Virus record (IMG/VR): IMGVR_UViG_3300005732_000020
Location: 1 to 21,007 of that record
From: a virus
DNA length: 21,007 nt
Reading direction: 5' to 3' (one strand)
In this document: piece by piece, positions 2,701 to 16,851 of the stretch
How positions within the stretch are numbered: position 1 is the stretch's first letter
Layout: each line of letters begins with the position of its first letter
Notes under the pieces: model-generated
Seen by the model: the letters and a program-made list of their open reading frames with translations, nothing else
Told to the model about the DNA's origin: nothing
Database searches by the model: none
Made by a program: the position numbers and the translations under genes

Positions 2701-3204
2701 ATGAAAGCAAATGTAATACAGTCTATAGCTGAAGCAGTAGCAGACTACTACGGAATAGAAGTATCAAAAATTTTCCAAAACACCCGTAGAAGAGATATAA
2801 CGGACAAACGTGCGATATTTCACTTCCTGTGCCACAAACACACCGACCTCAGCCTTCAACAAATAGGTAGGTTCGCAGAGAACTATGATAGAGTAGCATA
2901 CAATCACGCTACGATTATACACAACATAAAAAAATCCCGCAATCTCATGAAGGTTGACAAGAGATTTGCAATCGACCTACTTCATCTCGATGCCTACGTG
3001 ACCAAGAATATTATAGTCAAGAAGGAGAAAGAAATCGTCATCAACAACAACATACAAATGATGCTTGAGAGATGGTTTGAATATGAGAGTAGAGAGTACC
3101 TTGACCTGTTATCTTCTATAGCAGAGATACTACACAAGGAGGATAATTTAGATAACATAAAAACTTGGATTAGCAAATATGAAGGGGTTCATCAAACTAC
3201 ATAG
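2701..3204 (+). CDS. DnaA domain-IV-like DNA-binding protein (no AAA+ domain)
   Basis: This 167-residue protein resembles the C-terminal DNA-binding domain of the bacterial initiator DnaA. Residues ~5-85 align by pattern with domain IV: VADYYGIEVSKIF, then KRAIFHFLCHKHTDLSLQQIGR, then DRVAYNHATIIHNIKKS (63-79), matching the DnaA signature region (GRDHTTVLHA...K in cellular DnaA). There is no Walker A/B, so it cannot be a full DnaA. Residues ~90-167 are a helical extension of unknown role. It overlaps the replisome organizer by 26 nt, pointing to a joint role in origin recognition. Alternatives are an inhibitor or competitor of host DnaA, or a transcription regulator. Confidence 0.75.
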   Translation: MKANVIQSIAEAVADYYGIEVSKIFQNTRRRDITDKRAIFHFLCHKHTDLSLQQIGRFAENYDRVAYNHATIIHNIKKSRNLMKVDKRFAIDLLHLDAYVTKNIIVKKEKEIVINNNIQMMLERWFEYESREYLDLLSSIAEILHKEDNLDNIKTWISKYEGVHQTT

Positions 3205-3919
3205 ACAGATTATGGAGTGGGAATGGTATCAAGACGCTAACACAAAGTCTGTCTTCATACACCTACTTCTAAATGCGTGTTACGATGAATGCAGATTCAT
3301 GGGTCAACCTGTTGAAAGAGGCCAATATATGACATCTTTATCACGTCTTGCAAGAGATTTAAACCTCAGCGTTAGACAGGTCAGAACGGCACTGACTAGA
3401 TTAGAAAAGACTGGTGAAATCGACACGCGAACGACAAACAAAAGTACACTCGTAACTATCTCTAACTATGGAAGTTATCAGATAGATGAGTCTACTAAGA
3501 AAAAGAAAACGACACGCAAGCGACAAGCAGTCGACACGCAAACGACAGACATAAATAAGAAAGAAAGAAAGGAAGAAGAAAAGAATAATACTACTTTCTA
3601 CAATACGGTTAGAACAGAGAGTATATGGGTTACACAGGTAGCCATGCAGTATCACACTAAGATACCAAAGGTCTTAAATGCTTTAGAGAGATTTCACAAT
3701 CACCTAAACATAACACAAGACAACAAACGAACTGCGAGGGATTTCAAAACACATTTTGTAAATTGGATAAAATACAACCTCGAAGACTCTAACCAGTCAT
3801 TTGGTAATTATAAATGGAAGTGGAAGGGTCAAGCAATGAAAACAGGAAACAAAGAGGAATACGAACGAGACAAAGCTGCTTTTGACAAGCCCGGTTTTGA
3901 CTTTCAAACGCTAATTTAA
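3179..3919 (+). CDS. Phage replisome organizer / O-like initiation protein
   Basis: A 246-residue protein of the phage replication-organizer type. It opens with the N-terminal motif GFIKLHRQIMEWEWYQDANT..F.HLL (residues 3-31), then a winged-helix region with a helix-turn-helix at about 53-77 (SLSRLARDLNLSVRQVRTAL). A highly charged, low-complexity linker follows (~103-137, rich in K/E/R/T). The C-terminal domain (~145-246) probably contacts the helicase, by analogy with lambda O/DnaD-like proteins. Such proteins bind origin iterons and recruit the replicative helicase, whose gene follows with a TAATG overlap. The gene carries six 11-bp DNA repeats and a purine tract in its wHTH/linker-coding part, a likely origin. 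The start at 3179 lies inside the DnaA-like gene. Confidence 0.8.
   Translation: MKGFIKLHRQIMEWEWYQDANTKSVFIHLLLNACYDECRFMGQPVERGQYMTSLSRLARDLNLSVRQVRTALTRLEKTGEIDTRTTNKSTLVTISNYGSYQIDESTKKKKTTRKRQAVDTQTTDINKKERKEEEKNNTTFYNTVRTESIWVTQVAMQYHTKIPKVLNALERFHNHLNITQDNKRTARDFKTHFVNWIKYNLEDSNQSFGNYKWKWKGQAMKTGNKEEYERDKAAFDKPGFDFQTLI
3421..3442 (+). repeat. Origin iterons, upstream pair
   Basis: Two tandem 11-bp units, CGACACGCGAA (3421-3431) and CGACAAACAAA (3432-3442), belong to the same repeat family as the four units at 3510-3553. The invariant core in all six is CGACAnnC. They lie within the organizer gene at the edge of the wHTH-coding part. Confidence 0.8.
3510..3553 (+). repeat. Origin iterons, four tandem 11-bp units
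   Basis: Four head-to-tail 11-bp units with exact 11-bp period: CGACACGCAAG (3510), CGACAAGCAGT (3521), CGACACGCAAA (3532) and CGACAGACATA (3543). Viewed as pairs they form two 20-22 bp direct repeats, with a third at 3421. The units at 3421 and 3532 share a reading frame, but the one at 3510 is in another frame, so the conservation is at DNA level. One repeat per helical turn suits cooperative binding by an initiator. Confidence 0.85.
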
Positions 3920-5685
3920 TGGAGATAAATGGATTCGAAGTAGATGAATTTAACATCTACAACATCGACACTAAGGCTAAACTATCAACTTGTCCTAAGT
4001 GCTCTCACAACCGCAAGAAGAAAACTCAAAAATGTCTAATGCTCGATTGGGAGCGTGGACTTGGAACGTGTCAACACTGCGGAGAAGTTGTACAACTACA
4101 CACCTACACAAAGGCATCTACAGGTGTATCGTACGCGATGCCACCAAGAAAAGAAAAGAAAGAAGTCCTATCACAAGTGTCAGAGTACTTTTTAAAAAGA
4201 GGTATATCAAACGAGACACTAAATACATTTGGTGTAACCAATGGAATGGAGTTCATGCCACAAGTCGGTGAAGAGGTCAATGTAATTATGTTCAACTACT
4301 ACGTAGGAGAGGAGATTATAAACATAAAGTATCGTGATGCTCGCAAGAACTTCAAGATGTACAAAGGAGCGCAAAAAACCTTTTACAATATAAATTCTAT
4401 AGCTGGAAAGGACACTTGTGTAATCGTAGAGGGAGAAGTTGATGCGATGTCTTTCCACGAGGCCGGAGTTACCAATGTAGTAAGTGTACCTAATGGATTC
4501 AATGCTACAGGTCAAATCAATCTAGACTATCTAACTGATTTCTACCATTACTTTGAAGACAAAGAGCGCATATACCTTGCCGTAGACAATGACGAGGCTG
4601 GTGAAAACGGTCAGAAAGAATTGATTCGTAGATTCGGTTCTGATAAAGTCTACCTATGTGACCTAAAGGATTGTAAGGATGCTAATGATTATCTAATTAA
4701 GTACGGTAAGGAAGGGTTAGCACAGGTTATTACAACTGCATCACCATGCCCAATCGATAATGTTATACGGGTTTCTGATATGGAGTCTCAACTAGATGAC
4801 TTCTACAAAAACGGTATTCAAAATGGATACAAGATTGGCATCACAGACTTTGATAATATATTCTCTACATACACTAAGCAGTTTATTGTAGTGACAGGTT
4901 TCCCATCCAGCGGAAAGAGTGATTGGGTTGACCAAATGACAATAGGGTACAATATGATGTATGGTTGGAAAACAGCCTACGCGTCAGTTGAGAACTTCCC
5001 TCAGTACCTACACGTAGATAAACTGATAAGAAAGCTTTATGGAAAGACACCTAAGTACGAAGAAACTAAGAAGGAACATTGGAGAAAATGTGTAAACCAC
5101 ATTGACCAAAACTTCTTCTTTATGGACTTTGAGGATGGCTACGACTTAGATAAAGTATTAGCAAAAGGACAGGAATTGGTAAAAAGAATGGGTATAAGAT
5201 GCTTGGTAATTGACCCATACAACAAGGTTAAGGACAAGGAGAACATCAATATGTCCATCAATGATTACACCAATCAATACCTCAACAAAATTGATAATTT
5301 CTGTAAGAAGAACGATGTACTTGTTTTACTCATAGCACACCCAACCAAACCTCAAAACGACAAAGGAAAACTACTTGAGCCTACATTCTATGATGTCAAG
5401 GGAGGTGGTGAGTTCTACGATATGTCACCTCACGGTATACTCGTGCATAGAGATTACGAGATGGGCACAGTGAAGCTTAAAGTCCTTAAGGTAAAGTTCT
5501 CTAACCTTGGAGAAAACCAAGCCCACACGCACTTTTACTACAATGTGAACAATGGAAGATACACCGCTATCGAAGCAGGTCAACCGAAATGGGATAATGA
5601 AAACTGGATTTCAACTGAAGAAAACCCGTACACCCAGACCAAGATTTTAGAAAGTGAATTTGCTAACCTAAACGACGCGTTTTAA
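3919..5685 (+). CDS. Primase-helicase, T7 gp4-like
   Basis: A 588-residue bifunctional replication enzyme that would unwind the fork and make primers. An N-terminal zinc-binding domain (Cys25, Cys28, Cys51, Cys54; an extra Cys39) is followed by a TOPRIM primase domain with EGEVD (171-175) and the metal-binding DND pair (Asp223, Asp225). The C-terminal RecA-fold helicase has Walker A GFPSSGKS (327-334), SVEN with candidate catalytic Glu358, Walker B LVID (429-432) and AHPTKP (His475). Length fits T7 gp4 (566 aa) and phage relatives. It starts at the TAATG junction with the organizer gene, so helicase and its presumed loader are co-translated. No DNA polymerase gene follows, unlike in many T7-like phages. 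Confidence 0.95.
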   Translation: MEINGFEVDEFNIYNIDTKAKLSTCPKCSHNRKKKTQKCLMLDWERGLGTCQHCGEVVQLHTYTKASTGVSYAMPPRKEKKEVLSQVSEYFLKRGISNETLNTFGVTNGMEFMPQVGEEVNVIMFNYYVGEEIINIKYRDARKNFKMYKGAQKTFYNINSIAGKDTCVIVEGEVDAMSFHEAGVTNVVSVPNGFNATGQINLDYLTDFYHYFEDKERIYLAVDNDEAGENGQKELIRRFGSDKVYLCDLKDCKDANDYLIKYGKEGLAQVITTASPCPIDNVIRVSDMESQLDDFYKNGIQNGYKIGITDFDNIFSTYTKQFIVVTGFPSSGKSDWVDQMTIGYNMMYGWKTAYASVENFPQYLHVDKLIRKLYGKTPKYEETKKEHWRKCVNHIDQNFFFMDFEDGYDLDKVLAKGQELVKRMGIRCLVIDPYNKVKDKENINMSINDYTNQYLNKIDNFCKKNDVLVLLIAHPTKPQNDKGKLLEPTFYDVKGGGEFYDMSPHGILVHRDYEMGTVKLKVLKVKFSNLGENQAHTHFYYNVNNGRYTAIEAGQPKWDNENWISTEENPYTQTKILESEFANLNDAF

Positions 5686-9213: not shown

Positions 9214-9625
9214 GAAAACAACGGTAGATGGTATTCAGTTCGCCTCTAAGTTAGAGAGCCATATGTATAAACTACTAAGGGCCTACAAAATAGATTTTAA
9301 GTACGAAGGTGAAAAGTATATATTGATAGACGACTTTCGATTTGAGTCTTCATCATTTGAAAAGACTGCTGCAAAAAAATATCTACACGACAGGGGTAAC
9401 AAAAAAATTCTACCCATATCATACACACCAGATTTTATTGATGCTCAGTATCCACCTCGTTATATAATAGAATGCAAGGGAAACCCAAACGAACGATTCC
9501 CACTGGTATGGAAACTGTTCAAGAGATACATACACCTTAAAGGATGGGACACTAAATTATACATGCCCCGCAATCAAAAAGACTGCGAGGCTGTTATTGG
9601 TCTGCTCAAAGAAGCTGGGTTTTAG
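9182..9625 (+). CDS. DUF1064-like PD-(D/E)XK endonuclease
   Basis: A 147-residue predicted DNA endonuclease, probably acting on branched or nicked DNA. It has the DUF1064-type layout: VDGIQFASKLESHMYKLL (Glu25), YTPDF (Asp84) and IIECKG (Glu97-x-Lys99), i.e. the D...ExK site. Later basic residues (KLFKRYIHLKG) suit DNA binding. The ATG at 9182 lies 32 nt inside the previous gene. It is the last + strand gene, and its TAG (9623-9625) overlaps the TAA of the - strand 2409-aa gene. It could be the Holliday-junction resolvase used in packaging or recombination; substrate is inferred. Confidence 0.8.
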   Translation: MRKKRQITRSKKTTVDGIQFASKLESHMYKLLRAYKIDFKYEGEKYILIDDFRFESSSFEKTAAKKYLHDRGNKKILPISYTPDFIDAQYPPRYIIECKGNPNERFPLVWKLFKRYIHLKGWDTKLYMPRNQKDCEAVIGLLKEAGF

Positions 9626-9638
9626 AATTGGTCTAAAA
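9620..9638. terminator. AT-rich hairpin at the convergent junction
   Basis: TTTTAGA (9620-9626) - ATTGG - TCTAAAA (9632-9638) spans the two overlapping stop codons. Being symmetric, it could act on transcripts from either side, but the 7-bp stem is AT-rich and weak and there is no long T-tract. This is the only candidate I see for ending the two converging transcripts. Confidence 0.35.
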
Positions 9639-12600
9639 GATTTCTTCGTTCTACACCTTGTTCTTTTTCTTCTTCGGTAGCTTTGATTTTCATATTAGGG
9701 TCTTTAGGGTCAAAAGACATCTTATCTGTACCAATAGCATCATAGATTTCCTCAAGCTGACGCTCCATTTTATCAGCAACCTTATTTATATCCTGCTTTG
9801 GAACACCGGGCGCCATAGCTGCTACTAGTCTTAAGTACAGCAACATGTTAGTAGCGTCATCTAATCTTTCCCTTATCGGCTCAGAAGCAGAAGTAATAGC
9901 TACTCCTGTAACACCTTGTGCAGACATGGTATTCCGCTTGTATATCATACCCTCATTTGATAAGCTAATCGCACGATTTAAATTCTCATATTCCTGTCCT
10001 AGAATACTTAAAATACCAGCATTATTACCAATAAAAGAGTACAAACCATCTTTAGTCATTAAGCTCTTGGTGTCCTGTGTTAGAAACTCAGTCACCTTTA
10101 AATCCTCCATCTCTAAAGAAGTCATACCATAATTCCACATAGCTTTCACCATATCATCAGCTAAGTCTGGTCTTGGTAATGGATTCATCATTTTTGATAA
10201 ATCTTGAACCACCTTCTCTGCAATGTTAATATTGTATGGACTAATCTTAAGCTTGTTTTCATAGGTCATCAAAAGCTCTCCAATGTCTTTAGAATTATAC
10301 TCTATTTGTTGTAGATTATCTTGAACAATGGTTAGAGTCGTTTTGTATTCCTCAGTGGATTTCGATTTATCTGGGTCTAGTTCTCTTATAGCTTCAATGC
10401 TTAAATCTGCAAGTTCACGGTTTTCTATTGGTAATAGGTTGTTACCAATCACCGATGACATGCCACCGTATCTCTCAATATCATCCTCATCTATAGCTCC
10501 AAAAAGACGAGCTAAACCGGCAACACCTTGGTAAATACCAACAACTCCGACAGCTTTTAATCCCTCGAAATATGCAATTTCTCGAACTTTACCTTCCAAA
10601 AACCTGCGTGATTGCTGTTTCTGTTCGGGGTCAAGCATTGGGTCTTTAAGCTTCTGAAGATTAGCTAAAATTGTAGAACGTGTGTTAAAGGTAAAACTAC
10701 CAAACGGTACAACAAACTTTGTTATGTTGTTACTAAACTGAGTAGTGTAGTCACCATATAAACCAGCTTGAGACGTTGAGGTGGTTTGCTTCTGTGTCTC
10801 GTCAATTTTCTGGTCAGCATAATTTATTGCCTCTATATTTGGATTTTTGTTTTCGTTCTCCCAAAAACTCTCATCATACTTAGCACCCTGCTTAATGCGG
10901 TAATCAATATATAACGACTCAAAAGTTGCGTTTGCAGCAGCACGGTCACCATTGGCTAACATTAATTCTAAAGTTGCTTCATTGGACGAACTTAACAAGT
11001 CCATGGCTTGTTTTATGGTGTATAGTACAGGACTCTTAGAATCAGGTATAAGACCACGATTGTAAAATCTCTGGTATGTATTTTTTTCTTTAGCTTCTAT
11101 TTCAGCTTCTGTATCCCCCTCTACAACATCTACTAAACCAAAGTTTCTAAGGTAGTAAGACATTGGCATTTTTCTGTTTTGATTTGTAATCAACTCAGAA
11201 CCTAAAGAGTTTCGCATGCCTGTGCGCGACTTAGCATATATATTTGACGCATAGGCATTACTACCCATGAGTTTTCTAAGCTGTTGTACAGTCCACGTTT
11301 TTCCTTCAACACCAGAAGTCGCATGTCCAGTACCAGTGTAAAAAGCTATGTTACTACGACTCAAATGGCTCTTAGCTTCTTTACTAGTGAGTAATGGCAT
11401 TACACCACTTACCGCGGATTGATACTGACGTATGTTCTGTGTCACACCAGTAAGAACTAAGGCACTTGCAGAACTGTAGGCAGCCTGTACTACTGAAGAC
11501 CATACCCCATCAGCAGGGTCTATATCCCCAATATCTGTAGTGTTTAAATGAGCACTCTTGATGTCCTTCTCAAAAATGTTTTCTCGCATCTTGAATGCAT
11601 TAGAAAAACGATTGTACACATCACTGGTACGCATGTCACCCCTATCATTCATAACATTACCTTCAAACAACTGTTGGAATAAAGGCATATCCATCATTTG
11701 TGATATCTGACGGTATTGGTCACGTGCGCTTACCTCTAGTTCAAGACCCTGTAATGACCCGTACATCTGATTAAAGAAGTTACCGGGTGCTAAGCGAAGA
11801 CTCAATCCACTTTCATCGTTAGAAAGAATTTCTGGAAGGGTAGCGTCTTTAGTTTGTCCAGCTGTGCTTGAAGGGTTAGCTTCTTCCTCATATCCAATAC
11901 GGTCAACATAGGTTTGACCATCAGCATATTGATAAAAAGAAGGTAGGTATACCTCCATTTCTGTAACATCGAAATCCGCATATCTTTCTAGATACTGCAT
12001 TGCTTCAGCATTGGGCTGCATAGCAACAAATTTGTCTATGAGTTCTGTATTTCTTCCAGAAGCTTTTGATGCAACATCCTCATAAGAATTAGCTTCCGCA
12101 ATATTTAGTTTATCTACAATAGCTTTAAATGATAAATACTGCGCCTCGTATTTAGGATTACGGTCAGAAGGTTTTTTATTTTTATCAGCTTCGTAATTAG
12201 AACGTCTTATATCTAATTCCTGAAGTATAAGACTTTTGTTTCTTGTAAACTCAACGTCTTGACCATTTTTAATCTCACCTCGTAGTCTACGCAGATTACT
12301 GAGAAGCATTTGCTCGTAGCTGTTATTGATGTGATTAGGGTCACTCATTTCCCGACGCTCTTTTGCACTAGCGTTCTTATAATCCTCATCGTTCTCAGCA
12401 GACAAAGCATAAGCATCAGTGTGCTCTTTCTTAATATTAGCTACCTTTTGTTTAGCTTCGTCAGTACGTCGACCTGCTTCATTATTTAAATCAATAAAAG
12501 CCTTACCCACCTTAGAATCTTTAAACAGATTCTGCATTAAAACAGTGGTTGTTGCAAGTGTACCCACCTTATCACTAAGGCTTCCAGAGTACATATCTAA

Positions 12601-15600
12601 ACTTAGATTTATAATACCCTTAATCGCTTCATTACCCTCTGTTGTGTAGATGTCAATTTTTCGGTCACCTAGTTCTGTTTGTATATCAAGAACCATATCG
12701 ATAACATCCAACAAGTTTTCTACTTCGCCCGGCTTTGTCTTGTTTCCTTTTTCTACATCAAGCAAGTAACCAACAAGTGTTGATTTTTGATTGTTGTTTA
12801 AGTAGCTTAATACATCGGTTTTGTCATTAATCAACTCTATACGGTCAACTAACTTTGAGTCCCTAGACTCTTCAAAAGCGCTCGTTGAAGGCTCTTCTGC
12901 AGTAGGAGTTACATCTGAAGACTCTGTTGTTGGAGGTGCTTGATTTTGTAGATTATTCTTAATATCATCTAACCTGTTTTGCAATTCACCTTTCTTATTG
13001 TCATAACGAGAATTAATCTCATCAATTCCAGACTGGTCAGGTGAACTAGGTTTTTGGATACGAGCTTCTAACAACTCTCTTAACTTAGCCTTGTCAGCAT
13101 CACTACCAGAGAATTCTTCCAAAACTCGGTCAATCGTTCTATTGTAACGTCCAGCTAAGTGGTCACCTAATACAGAAACAACTGAGAAATTTCGACCACC
13201 CTCAATAAGTTGGAATACCGAACCTCCCAAAAGTATTTTACCGGGAATACTTTGAGCACTGTTTGCAATATCTAGAGCGATATCATTAGCGTAGGGCGTA
13301 CTATATCTTCTTTCTTCAAATTCTTCCGAACTTGCAAAGACATTCAAAGTTGAATGTCCATCCTCATCGGTACTTGTATCCTCTTCAACAGAGATTCTTG
13401 ACTGTGTCCTACTCGAGTACTCAATCTTTTCTGATGTTGATGACTCTACAGCTTTAGCAGAAGCCTCATCTTCAGCTAATTTAATCTCATTATCTCTCTG
13501 TTTATCTAATTCAGTTAACTCAGATTCAATCTGTTTAATCTCATTAGCGGATTCAACATCTATATCTTCTAGTTTCAGTTCCGGAGAAACAGCTTCCATT
13601 GATAAATTAGCGTCTGCTAAAAGCCCCTTATTCTTTTCAGACTCACGTATATTGTCAACATGCTCTTGCACATTAAAACCCTCAAGTATCTCACGAGGTA
13701 TGTTTTGCGTTCTGTTAGCATCGGCACGAGTTGTATTCTCGATTATTCTAACTTCACCATCTTGACCTAAAAATCCAGCTGATTCAGCAAGAAAAATCTC
13801 AACTGCCTTATCTTTTATTTCGCTTTGAGGTATTTGATTCACCCCTTCAACTTGTTCCTCTGAAACAGACGACACACCTTCCTCTGTTGACAATACATCT
13901 CCAGTAACAAAGGATGCCGCAACATCTTGACCTTTGTATTTATTCTTTACCAAATCATCTACAGCAGCCTGCATATAGATGGATTTTTGTTCAGATGACA
14001 TGTAATCAAAAGAAATAGTCGATGGATACTTCATCATCACACGACGTGCTCTTTCTTTTGCCTCTTCTAACTTAGGCACAGCAGCTCTAGCAAGGTTACC
14101 GTCTTCAGAATTTTTAACGGTGTTAGCATAGTTCTTTACATCAGCCATAGACTGTAAGAACTCATACTTATCCTCTGGAGTCATCTCGTCTATAATATCC
14201 TGCTTCTGATTCTTATGATTAATTAATTGAGAACCAAATTTATCTACGAGTTCCTGTTGAGCGTTTAACTGAGCTTCACTATATGTAATTGATTGTTGAG
14301 AATCATCTAAGCTCTCATTGGATTTTTTATTTGCAGCAACCATGTCTTCATACACTGCTAACTCGGTTTTATAACTTTGTAACGTCTCTTGTTCAGCGTT
14401 AAAGGTTAAATTACCTCTCATAAAGCCGTCAACAGCATTACTTATTCGTTTATTTTGGACACGAGTACCAAGCGAAGCAATACCTGTAGCGGTAAAAAAT
14501 GTTTGAGCACCAGTCTCCGCAAACATATCGAATAACTCCTTTTGATTGAAATCCTTCAATCCCCATGCTACATCTACAGCATATTGAGCCATCATTATAG
14601 ACTCCTCCTCTGCAAACTCAAGAGCCAGAACCCTTGGCTGTACTCCTAACGATGTAGCAAGTTTATTTATAAAACCCTTGTGGAACTGCGCTCCGTATTG
14701 GTCGGCTAAAATCTTAGCGTTTTCTGCAGTTTTTGCACCCGCAAAGTTTTTAACACCCGATATACCCTTAAAGTATTTAAATGTAAATAGACTTGTAAGA
14801 CCTGTTTCTATACCACCAACTGTAAATGCATAAGCTTTCTGCTCAGCACGTGTCATGTTTGCCATGCGTTTCAGCTCAGCCTCTTTCCATGCACTTGTAG
14901 TGTAGTTTTCACCAAGAACTTTTTTAGCATCTTGCTGCTGCTTCTCAAGGCTATACATGGTTTCACCATAGCCATTCATAAAGGTCAAGGCTAAACCCAT
15001 CTCTGGATTCATCATATACATAGCAGTAATAGGCAGGCTTTCCATCGTTGCATTACCGCCCTTAGCTAAGACCTCAGCAAAGCTGTTAGCATCCGTTATT
15101 CCAGATTCGTAGTATGGTAGCCACTCTTCACGAGTATCTTGAATAACCTCTTTTGTAAGATAACCTAAGTCCTGAAAGTCTGGGTCATTAGCTTTGATGA
15201 CATCCTTAGATATCATCATTGGAACACCGCCTACTGAAGCACTCTGCATCGGCAATGCTTTCATCAAGCTGCTACCAATATCAGCAATAGATAAGACCAA
15301 GGTCTGACCTAAATCTAAGAGTCTTTCTCCAGCTAATACAGCTTGGTCGTAAGCCTCTTGAATATACCGAGACGATACCTCAAACTCTCTAATTGGAGTT
15401 GCGTTGTTACGTTCTTGTAACTCCGCTAAGGACTCAAGCATTTCCCCAGCTATCTTACCCTGCACATCTGGGTTTATAGATATTTTTATATCTCTTTTTT
15501 CTACGGCTAAAATACCATCGTAATCAGATAGTAGGTGTTGTGCCTCTGCGTATGTTGCTACTCTATCATTAATAAGAAGGTTTTGTCCAAAGCTCATGTC

Positions 15601-16851
15601 ATCAGGAGACATACCAGCGGACATCATCATCTTCATGTGATAATCGTTGTTTGCAAAATCGAAGTGACCTCCATTTGGAGAAGCAGCTATTGCCCCACCA
15701 ACAACTTTAGAATACGAACGCATACGGGCATTCATATCGTCACCTATTTTCTTTATCTGTTTCTTTTGTGATTCGTCGTCTGTATCTGCATACAAATCAT
15801 TCAAGATTCGTCTAGCTTCAGTATGACTAAATCCTCCTCTTGACATCTGGTTATAAGCATCATTACTGCCAGTGATTTCTAATAGAGCACTTTGGCCTTC
15901 CATGCCTAATTTTGCATTGCTATTAAGACCGGTATTTATAAAAATAGCGGTCATTTCCGTATTGTCTGAATTGTTAATTGACAACTGAGCAAGGCCTATA
16001 TTGTCAACCTTGCTCGTCATCCAATCTTTCAAACCATCAATAGCAACGTCCTTACGGTAATCACCAGTGTTTGAATGACCTGTAGTCCAGTAGTTTACCC
16101 AGTCAATACTCTTTAATGCGGCATCTGTATAAAGTGAAACGGTTTTCTGTTTTCCGTCAGGAGCTGTTATCTTAAGTCGATTTTGACCAACACTAGTTTG
16201 TTCAGCTGTAAAACCAAACTTACCATACTCTCTCTCAAACTGTAAATCAGCATCACGCTCATTCATGGTTATCCATGAAAGGTCAGACTCTTTAATAAGT
16301 TGAGGTAGTGTTATATCATTATATTGTGGTACGTTCTCGTTGTAATTAGGACTTTGAAATCCAGTATCCGAACCAGATAATACGATGTTGGATTCTGATT
16401 CCGAATCCACGGAACCCTGTATCGGTGCGCTTGGTAAGGAAGTTGTAGAAGTAGTTACGCTTGAATTTTTTTTTTCAGCCTCTACCTTAATTGGCTCGTA
16501 AAACGATTCGTACAATGATACCAATCCATCATTGTCTGGCGTTTCCATACCGAGTTTTCGATATATAGCTGGTAGATTGTATGATATTCTTTCATTTGCA
16601 TAGCCATCAATCTCATGCTCGGTCATAACTTCACCATGAGCATAATTCAAGTCATACAACCACTTGTATGCCTTCTTGTTGCTAAACTTTTTCTCTGGCT
16701 CAGTCGGAGGTTTTGACTGTGTGTTTTCAGGAATTACAGGGGCTGTTTCCGCTGCAGATAAGTCAACTTCAGGAGCTTCGATAACACTTTTTCGTGCATC
16801 CAATGGTGCTTGTAGTGGAGCATTGTTCATTTGTTCGTTGTTCACAATCAT
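9622..16851 (-). CDS. Giant virion protein, probable T7 gp16-like ejection protein / large polyvalent protein
   Basis: A 2409-residue protein, last and largest of three co-oriented virion genes. Its size, position and order (239, 647, 2409 aa) parallel T7 gp14-gp15-gp16, whose products are ejected to build a DNA conduit across the cell envelope. Visible layout: Pro/Ser-rich disordered N-terminus (1-55, and again ~128-170); a globular part (~170-500); a hydrophobic/amphipathic stretch rich in Gly/Ala/Met (~500-800, including LTFMNGYGETM and TGAQTFFTATGIASLG), perhaps membrane-active; long charged coiled-coil segments (~815-1150, 1275-1300); and a C-terminal part like other phage large polyvalent proteins (~1630-2090, with SSASALVLTGVTQN near 1790 and FVVPFGSFTFNTR near 2045). 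I see no RNA polymerase, lysozyme or peptidase motif. The start ATG overlaps the previous stop (TAATG). Confidence 0.8.
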   Translation of the reverse strand: MIVNNEQMNNAPLQAPLDARKSVIEAPEVDLSAAETAPVIPENTQSKPPTEPEKKFSNKKAYKWLYDLNYAHGEVMTEHEIDGYANERISYNLPAIYRKLGMETPDNDGLVSLYESFYEPIKVEAEKKNSSVTTSTTSLPSAPIQGSVDSESESNIVLSGSDTGFQSPNYNENVPQYNDITLPQLIKESDLSWITMNERDADLQFEREYGKFGFTAEQTSVGQNRLKITAPDGKQKTVSLYTDAALKSIDWVNYWTTGHSNTGDYRKDVAIDGLKDWMTSKVDNIGLAQLSINNSDNTEMTAIFINTGLNSNAKLGMEGQSALLEITGSNDAYNQMSRGGFSHTEARRILNDLYADTDDESQKKQIKKIGDDMNARMRSYSKVVGGAIAASPNGGHFDFANNDYHMKMMMSAGMSPDDMSFGQNLLINDRVATYAEAQHLLSDYDGILAVEKRDIKISINPDVQGKIAGEMLESLAELQERNNATPIREFEVSSRYIQEAYDQAVLAGERLLDLGQTLVLSIADIGSSLMKALPMQSASVGGVPMMISKDVIKANDPDFQDLGYLTKEVIQDTREEWLPYYESGITDANSFAEVLAKGGNATMESLPITAMYMMNPEMGLALTFMNGYGETMYSLEKQQQDAKKVLGENYTTSAWKEAELKRMANMTRAEQKAYAFTVGGIETGLTSLFTFKYFKGISGVKNFAGAKTAENAKILADQYGAQFHKGFINKLATSLGVQPRVLALEFAEEESIMMAQYAVDVAWGLKDFNQKELFDMFAETGAQTFFTATGIASLGTRVQNKRISNAVDGFMRGNLTFNAEQETLQSYKTELAVYEDMVAANKKSNESLDDSQQSITYSEAQLNAQQELVDKFGSQLINHKNQKQDIIDEMTPEDKYEFLQSMADVKNYANTVKNSEDGNLARAAVPKLEEAKERARRVMMKYPSTISFDYMSSEQKSIYMQAAVDDLVKNKYKGQDVAASFVTGDVLSTEEGVSSVSEEQVEGVNQIPQSEIKDKAVEIFLAESAGFLGQDGEVRIIENTTRADANRTQNIPREILEGFNVQEHVDNIRESEKNKGLLADANLSMEAVSPELKLEDIDVESANEIKQIESELTELDKQRDNEIKLAEDEASAKAVESSTSEKIEYSSRTQSRISVEEDTSTDEDGHSTLNVFASSEEFEERRYSTPYANDIALDIANSAQSIPGKILLGGSVFQLIEGGRNFSVVSVLGDHLAGRYNRTIDRVLEEFSGSDADKAKLRELLEARIQKPSSPDQSGIDEINSRYDNKKGELQNRLDDIKNNLQNQAPPTTESSDVTPTAEEPSTSAFEESRDSKLVDRIELINDKTDVLSYLNNNQKSTLVGYLLDVEKGNKTKPGEVENLLDVIDMVLDIQTELGDRKIDIYTTEGNEAIKGIINLSLDMYSGSLSDKVGTLATTTVLMQNLFKDSKVGKAFIDLNNEAGRRTDEAKQKVANIKKEHTDAYALSAENDEDYKNASAKERREMSDPNHINNSYEQMLLSNLRRLRGEIKNGQDVEFTRNKSLILQELDIRRSNYEADKNKKPSDRNPKYEAQYLSFKAIVDKLNIAEANSYEDVASKASGRNTELIDKFVAMQPNAEAMQYLERYADFDVTEMEVYLPSFYQYADGQTYVDRIGYEEEANPSSTAGQTKDATLPEILSNDESGLSLRLAPGNFFNQMYGSLQGLELEVSARDQYRQISQMMDMPLFQQLFEGNVMNDRGDMRTSDVYNRFSNAFKMRENIFEKDIKSAHLNTTDIGDIDPADGVWSSVVQAAYSSASALVLTGVTQNIRQYQSAVSGVMPLLTSKEAKSHLSRSNIAFYTGTGHATSGVEGKTWTVQQLRKLMGSNAYASNIYAKSRTGMRNSLGSELITNQNRKMPMSYYLRNFGLVDVVEGDTEAEIEAKEKNTYQRFYNRGLIPDSKSPVLYTIKQAMDLLSSSNEATLELMLANGDRAAANATFESLYIDYRIKQGAKYDESFWENENKNPNIEAINYADQKIDETQKQTTSTSQAGLYGDYTTQFSNNITKFVVPFGSFTFNTRSTILANLQKLKDPMLDPEQKQQSRRFLEGKVREIAYFEGLKAVGVVGIYQGVAGLARLFGAIDEDDIERYGGMSSVIGNNLLPIENRELADLSIEAIRELDPDKSKSTEEYKTTLTIVQDNLQQIEYNSKDIGELLMTYENKLKISPYNINIAEKVVQDLSKMMNPLPRPDLADDMVKAMWNYGMTSLEMEDLKVTEFLTQDTKSLMTKDGLYSFIGNNAGILSILGQEYENLNRAISLSNEGMIYKRNTMSAQGVTGVAITSASEPIRERLDDATNMLLYLRLVAAMAPGVPKQDINKVADKMERQLEEIYDAIGTDKMSFDPKDPNMKIKATEEEKEQGVERRNLLDQF
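16466..16475 (-). other. A10 homopolymer in the giant gene (possible slippage site)
   Basis: On the coding (-) strand the codons for residues ~125-128 read GAA AAA AAA AAT, ten consecutive A. Gaining one A opens a frame that stops after roughly 37 more codons; losing one A stops within a few codons. Slippage would therefore give a short N-terminal form. Whether it is used cannot be told from sequence. Confidence 0.3.

Follow-up and report, generated by a model that had tools for sequence, protein, structure and literature searches.

It is quite probable that a large superfamily of replication initiators exists in which residue 66 of the protein near-deterministically sets bases 2-3 of all iterons in the initiator's own gene (R: GA, K: GG, Q or M: AA, N: CA), that new specificities arise repeatedly by a residue switch with a concerted change of the iterons, and that the origin and its specificity are predictable from the protein sequence alone. 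The window, which is a complete IMG/VR record (21,007 bp), very probably encodes such a phage replication initiator, whose winged helix-turn-helix (wHTH) would bind 11-bp-spaced iterons within its own gene, with Arg66 reading bases 2-3, and whose complex would open an AT/purine-rich stretch and load the helicase. The repeats, a selection on them that goes further than protein coding requires, and their covariation with residue 66 were computed here. The relevant features of the window are as follows:

2701..3204, plus strand: gene for a DnaA domain IV protein, 167 aa (Bac_DnaA_C, 4e-16)
3179..3919, plus strand: replisome organizer/initiator gene, 246 aa (PHROG 2514, PF25200, AlphaFold model)
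3371..3412, plus strand: codons of the recognition helix, residues 65-78 (helix in the AlphaFold model)
3374..3376, plus strand: codon of Arg66, the specificity residue (top mutual information of 104 columns; DNA-only scans)
3421..3428, plus strand: iteron unit 1, CGACACGC
3432..3439, plus strand: iteron unit 2, CGACAAAC, in wing codons T85 T86 N87; its base 2 falls on the third, silent position of the T85 codon
3510..3517, plus strand: iteron unit 3, CGACACGC
3521..3528, plus strand: iteron unit 4, CGACAAGC
3532..3539, plus strand: iteron unit 5, CGACACGC
3543..3550, plus strand: iteron unit 6, CGACAGAC
3557..3585, plus strand: all-purine tract of 29 nt in AT-rich DNA, longer than any other such run of the window; candidate unwinding region
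3919..5685, plus strand: gene for a DNA primase/helicase, 588 aa (PHROG 239, 1e-89)

The wHTH part of the organizer (residues 1-138) matches PHROG 2514, DnaD-like helicase loader (1.2e-28); it should be noted that this name is an annotation, and that the helicase-loader function is given by name only. Weaker matches were to replication-initiation O-like profiles, and the C-terminal part matched DUF7833 (PF25200, 4e-12 for the gene product). The protein consists of the wHTH (approximately residues 1-104), a disordered linker (105-134) that is rich in K, T, Q, N and R and has very low confidence in the AlphaFold model, and the DUF7833-like C-terminal part. The model has helices at 54-61 and 65-78 and wing strands at 81-85 and 90-94; R66 is the second residue of helix 65-78, at its N-terminus. 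Solved structures gave no sequence match, and Foldseek found nothing below E 1e-3, merely weak similarities to generic wHTH proteins. The initial annotation had placed the gene between a DnaA-like gene and a helicase. The helicase was borne out (42.5% identity to Cellulophaga phage phi10:1), whereas the upstream gene encodes DnaA domain IV alone, not a whole DnaA; an ORF similar to its product is present at 49 of 119 relative loci. DnaA boxes were considered as an element and rejected: the single DnaA-box-like TTATACACA, at 2915, is compatible with chance, and it falls within the domain IV gene itself. A minus-strand ORF of 2409 aa (9622-16851) lies in the other half of the window.

Six CGACANNC units are found on the plus strand, at 3421, 3432, 3510, 3521, 3532 and 3543, all inside the organizer gene, with a period of 11 bp inside each cluster and 78 bp between the two clusters, exactly as the initial annotation had located them. 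Four units lie in linker codons, and two lie in or just before the codons of the wing hairpin. Counted from the start at 3179, units 1-6 fall in frames 2, 1, 1, 0, 2 and 1, i.e., all three frames are used, in agreement with the earlier reading that the repeats are read in different frames. The accompanying claim, that the protein does not explain the repeats, withstood 20,000 synonymous shuffles of the gene in which the protein and codon usage were preserved: the maxima were 5 units (in 14 shuffles) and two 11-bp pairs (in 113 shuffles), versus the observed 6 and 4. Elsewhere in the window, CGACANNC occurs as four isolated copies, 5795, 13870, 17849, and 20495 (minus strand), and a scan of the window found the 11-bp-paired form to be confined to the organizer gene.

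The purine run that had been described after the last unit was found at the same place and with the same length; the next-longest run in the window is 20 nt. It belongs to a conserved AT- and purine-rich stretch: among 161 homologs, the purine fraction is 0.75-0.77 and the AT fraction 0.79 at +25 to +55 past the last unit, compared to approximately 0.58 and 0.61 elsewhere. A K/E/N-rich linker could partly account for the tract, and a melting role is only inferred. GC skew has no turn near 3.5 kb, and its sole turn, at approximately 9 kb, coincides with a switch in gene orientation; thus, the skew is uninformative on the origin.

Under the proposed mechanism, the N-terminal wHTH would bind the two wing-codon units and the four linker-codon units, with Arg66 reading bases 2-3 of each (NGACANNC); the 11-bp period, approximately one helical turn, would place the bound monomers along a single face of the DNA in a nucleoprotein complex. 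This complex may open the adjoining AT/purine-rich stretch, as inferred from the composition peak 25-55 bp past the last unit in the homologs, and the primase/helicase encoded by the neighboring gene would then be loaded and replication would start, both by analogy. That the protein physically binds the units, that the strands open, that the helicase is loaded and that replication starts there are all inferences. From the covariation of iterons with residue 66, sequence-specific binding by the gene's own wHTH is judged to be nearly certain; this rests on the covariation only, there being no binding data. The origin function of the arrays is likewise an inference, with no replication data behind it. 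Alternatively, the organizer could bind the repeats chiefly for autoregulation or copy control, with the true origin located elsewhere; the covariation indicates a binding partnership and not origin function as such, and no skew turn is seen at the array. However, the arrays are located mid-gene and are followed by the conserved AT/purine-rich stretch, the organizer gene of the window adjoins the primase/helicase gene, and the origin of relatives has been placed exactly there (phage L, PMC8022706; HK620 annotation). We consider such a mainly regulatory role unlikely and prefer to interpret the arrays as parts of a replication origin.

These relatives, Salmonella phage L gp18 and HK620 O (P22-like lambdoid phages), are wHTH relatives of the window protein (tblastn E of approximately 1e-6 to 1e-7) and have, like the window, a helicase gene after the initiator gene. 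In phage L gp18, 11-bp linker repeats have been proposed as the origin (PMC8022706), and in the deposited HK620 record, the rep_origin coincides with 11-bp ACCAGCAAATT repeats in the O gene. The cores are different from those in the window (TGTCCAACGGA and ACCAGCAAATT), no residue code is described for either, and the window protein differs in its DUF7833-like C-terminal part. The remark in the initial annotation that an origin with this particular 11-bp repeat is not known to have been described has to be qualified, as 11-bp iterons of a relative had already been proposed as one. The lambda O/ori-lambda system is similar to the window in that iterons lie within the initiator gene, with an AT-rich region adjoining; however, it has four 18-bp iterons (PMC3349717), compared to the 11-bp spacing in the window, which does not meet the 18-bp iteron criterion of the lambda O family proper. 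Phage L gp18 itself shares just 15% identity with lambda O (PMC8022706). For SPP1 G38P, 80alpha ORF20 and Lactococcus r1t Rro, as is proposed for the window, the organizer gene carries the origin. ORF20 of 80alpha could not be complemented in trans, and the origin seems to lie within its gene (PMC5499656); it was evaluated as an experimental member and rejected, as its score with the family profile is -0.2 bits, which does not amount to sequence homology, and no 11-bp array was seen in 80alpha. The r1t Rro gene has 11-bp GGAACC repeats, yet no significant match to the family profile.

Homologs were gathered by protein pattern alone, with a peptide-pattern scan yielding at least 588 relatives, and the iteron class was called blind to residue 66, with base 5 taken as A or C. 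The C at base 5 was admitted after the first exceptions, an A-only caller having miscalled CGACC/NAACC units. For clear calls in this protein-driven set, at less than 70% domain identity, K66 corresponds to GG in 15 of 15 homologs, Q66 to AA in 39 of 40, and R66 to GA in 11 of 14; 35 of the 109 homologs have no clear class. Among 104 columns of the domain, node 66 has the highest mutual information with the class (1.19 bits, corrected), the next being node 70 with 0.42. Pairing of Arg with guanine and of Gln with adenine, as well as an altered preference with Asn, are familiar in protein-DNA recognition.

The iteron core goes with residue 66 (R, NGACA; Q or M, NAACA; K, NGGCA; N, NCACA). This relation was set down before it was put to DNA-only scans, and the prediction of N66 for NCACA was set down later, ahead of its own scan. 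Arrays of GGGCA (GGGCANNC) in viral contigs are accompanied by K66 in all 61 homologs, which have 47 distinct helices. For AACANNC, 99 arrays in viral contigs are in homologs, where residue 66 is Q in 84, M in 7 and another residue in 8; of the R66 cases under AACA, L034 is a register artefact, truly a CGACAAAC array, and L437 is a CGACC array. For the Q class, requiring three strict TAACA units was the wrong pattern (31 arrays, zero in homologs); Q arrays mix TAACA and CAACA, and AACA alone was adopted. Among the matches listed, R66 is present in 30 of 35 homologs with CGACA arrays, the remaining five having divergent helices. For CACA arrays in viral contigs, N66 is present in 15 of 18 homologs; this residue is rare in the family (7/212 in the protein-driven set). 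The code also fits Cellulophaga phage phi18:3 (K66, GGGCA), Listeria 293 and Bacillus Pookie (Q66, TAACA), and Solobacterium SMO_1P (R66, TGACA).

Related phages have both the residue and the iteron class in common, and the agreement could, in principle, result from shared ancestry only. However, on a tree from which the recognition helix had been left out, residue 66 and the class have each undergone at least 61-63 changes. Where branch support allows independent pairs to be compared, the two agree in 9 of 9 cases for K/GG and 8 of 8 for Q/AA (and in 3 of 3 for R/GA, too few for significance), and there are natural near-swap pairs in which the domains are 81% identical while residue 66 and the class both differ. 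It should be noted that the tree takes in loci picked by DNA pattern, which sets the class, not the residue. We find an explanation by common descent alone very hard to sustain, and conclude in favor of recurrent joint change of the residue and the iterons.

An origin within an initiator gene is of a known kind, and 11-bp iterons are known from phage L. No description of the residue-to-base code or of the breadth of the iteron family was found in the literature searched (subscription literature was outside the search), and both appear to be new. The rule points to the probable site and the specificity of the replication origin in a great many uncultured phages, the peptide-pattern scan alone having given at least 588 relatives; it also provides a natural series for studying the co-change of a DNA-binding protein and several sites in its own gene, and phage replication compatibility becomes testable via single residues.

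The 11-bp arrays are kept across very divergent homologs, far above the synonymous expectation, and the units persist as the linker drifts, which the initial annotation had named as a check; the homolog arrays and the residue-66 covariation lend strong support to its central claim, that the initiator gene contains iterons for its own product, with origin function inferred. Among the matches listed, 73 distinct homologs contain 77 pairs of CGACANNC units spaced by exactly 11 bp, compared to 1.1 expected by synonymous shuffling, and at least one such pair is present in 40 of these 73 proteins. A DNA-only scan of viral contigs for three CGACANNC units at 11 bp found, among the matches listed, 132 array occurrences; 38 of them, a large share, were inside genes whose products phmmer relates to the window protein, and their offsets span all three frames; the set of 132 included a few loci obtained by protein. 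Antisense arrays are absent (sense/antisense to the gene, 61/0, 52/0, 110/0 and 18/0), and homologs without CGACA bear 11-bp arrays with other cores. Contigs from bacterial genomes, with the labels Bacteroidota, Proteobacteria, Bacillota, Campylobacterales and Chlorobiaceae, contain homologs as well. One feature of an iteron origin embedded in its initiator gene, as in lambda O/ori, namely an excess of iterons in that gene over protein-coding need, is met by the shuffles and the homolog pairs; another, recognition by the initiator of its own iterons, is met by covariation only, without a binding assay.

Base 2 of the wing unit (window position 3432) is free to vary because it is the third position of a Thr/Ser codon. 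In the protein-driven set at less than 70% identity, this silent base is G in 18 of 18 homologs with R66 and in 7 of 8 with K66, A in 23 of 26 with Q66, and C in 2 of 2 with N66 (R against Q, Fisher p = 5e-11); in other Thr/Ser codons of the same domains, the frequencies are 0.11-0.19 for G and 0.29-0.46 for A (R, Q and K proteins). The coding sequence is thus shown to bear an additional constraint at the level of DNA, which extends even to a silent base. That a low-complexity linker in the protein merely gives rise to the repeats, a suspicion that its disorder and K/T/Q/N/R-rich composition might raise, deserves almost no credence and is refuted by the frame test (a period of 11 bp does not fit a whole number of codons, and all three frames are used), the shuffle test and the silent-base test.

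Several minor observations concern the limits of the code and of the family. Units with C at base 5 (CGACC/NAACC) were seen at L011, L534, L563, L505, L464 and L447, where E often, although not always, precedes residue 66. Some R units are CGACC; therefore, base 5 has a further determinant, and a second specificity position is likely to exist. Homologs with S66 (L482, L483 and L545) have mixed units (GACA, AACA, CGCA and AGCA), as if a small residue at this position relaxes specificity; mixed units are seen in Vibrio phages with S66. CGACANNC arrays within apparent other wHTH initiator genes that phmmer did not detect (L041, L100, L051, L085 and L095) suggest that the layout extends further. 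Most CGACA triples outside the homologs represent a separate CGACACCC element of other contigs, arranged in mostly noncoding arrays at 11 bp that are often followed by an inverted GGTGTCG (L026, L031, L036, L072, L105 and many similar among L013-L131); these contigs carry genes that resemble a PD-(D/E)XK exonuclease and a terminase small subunit, both named by eye.
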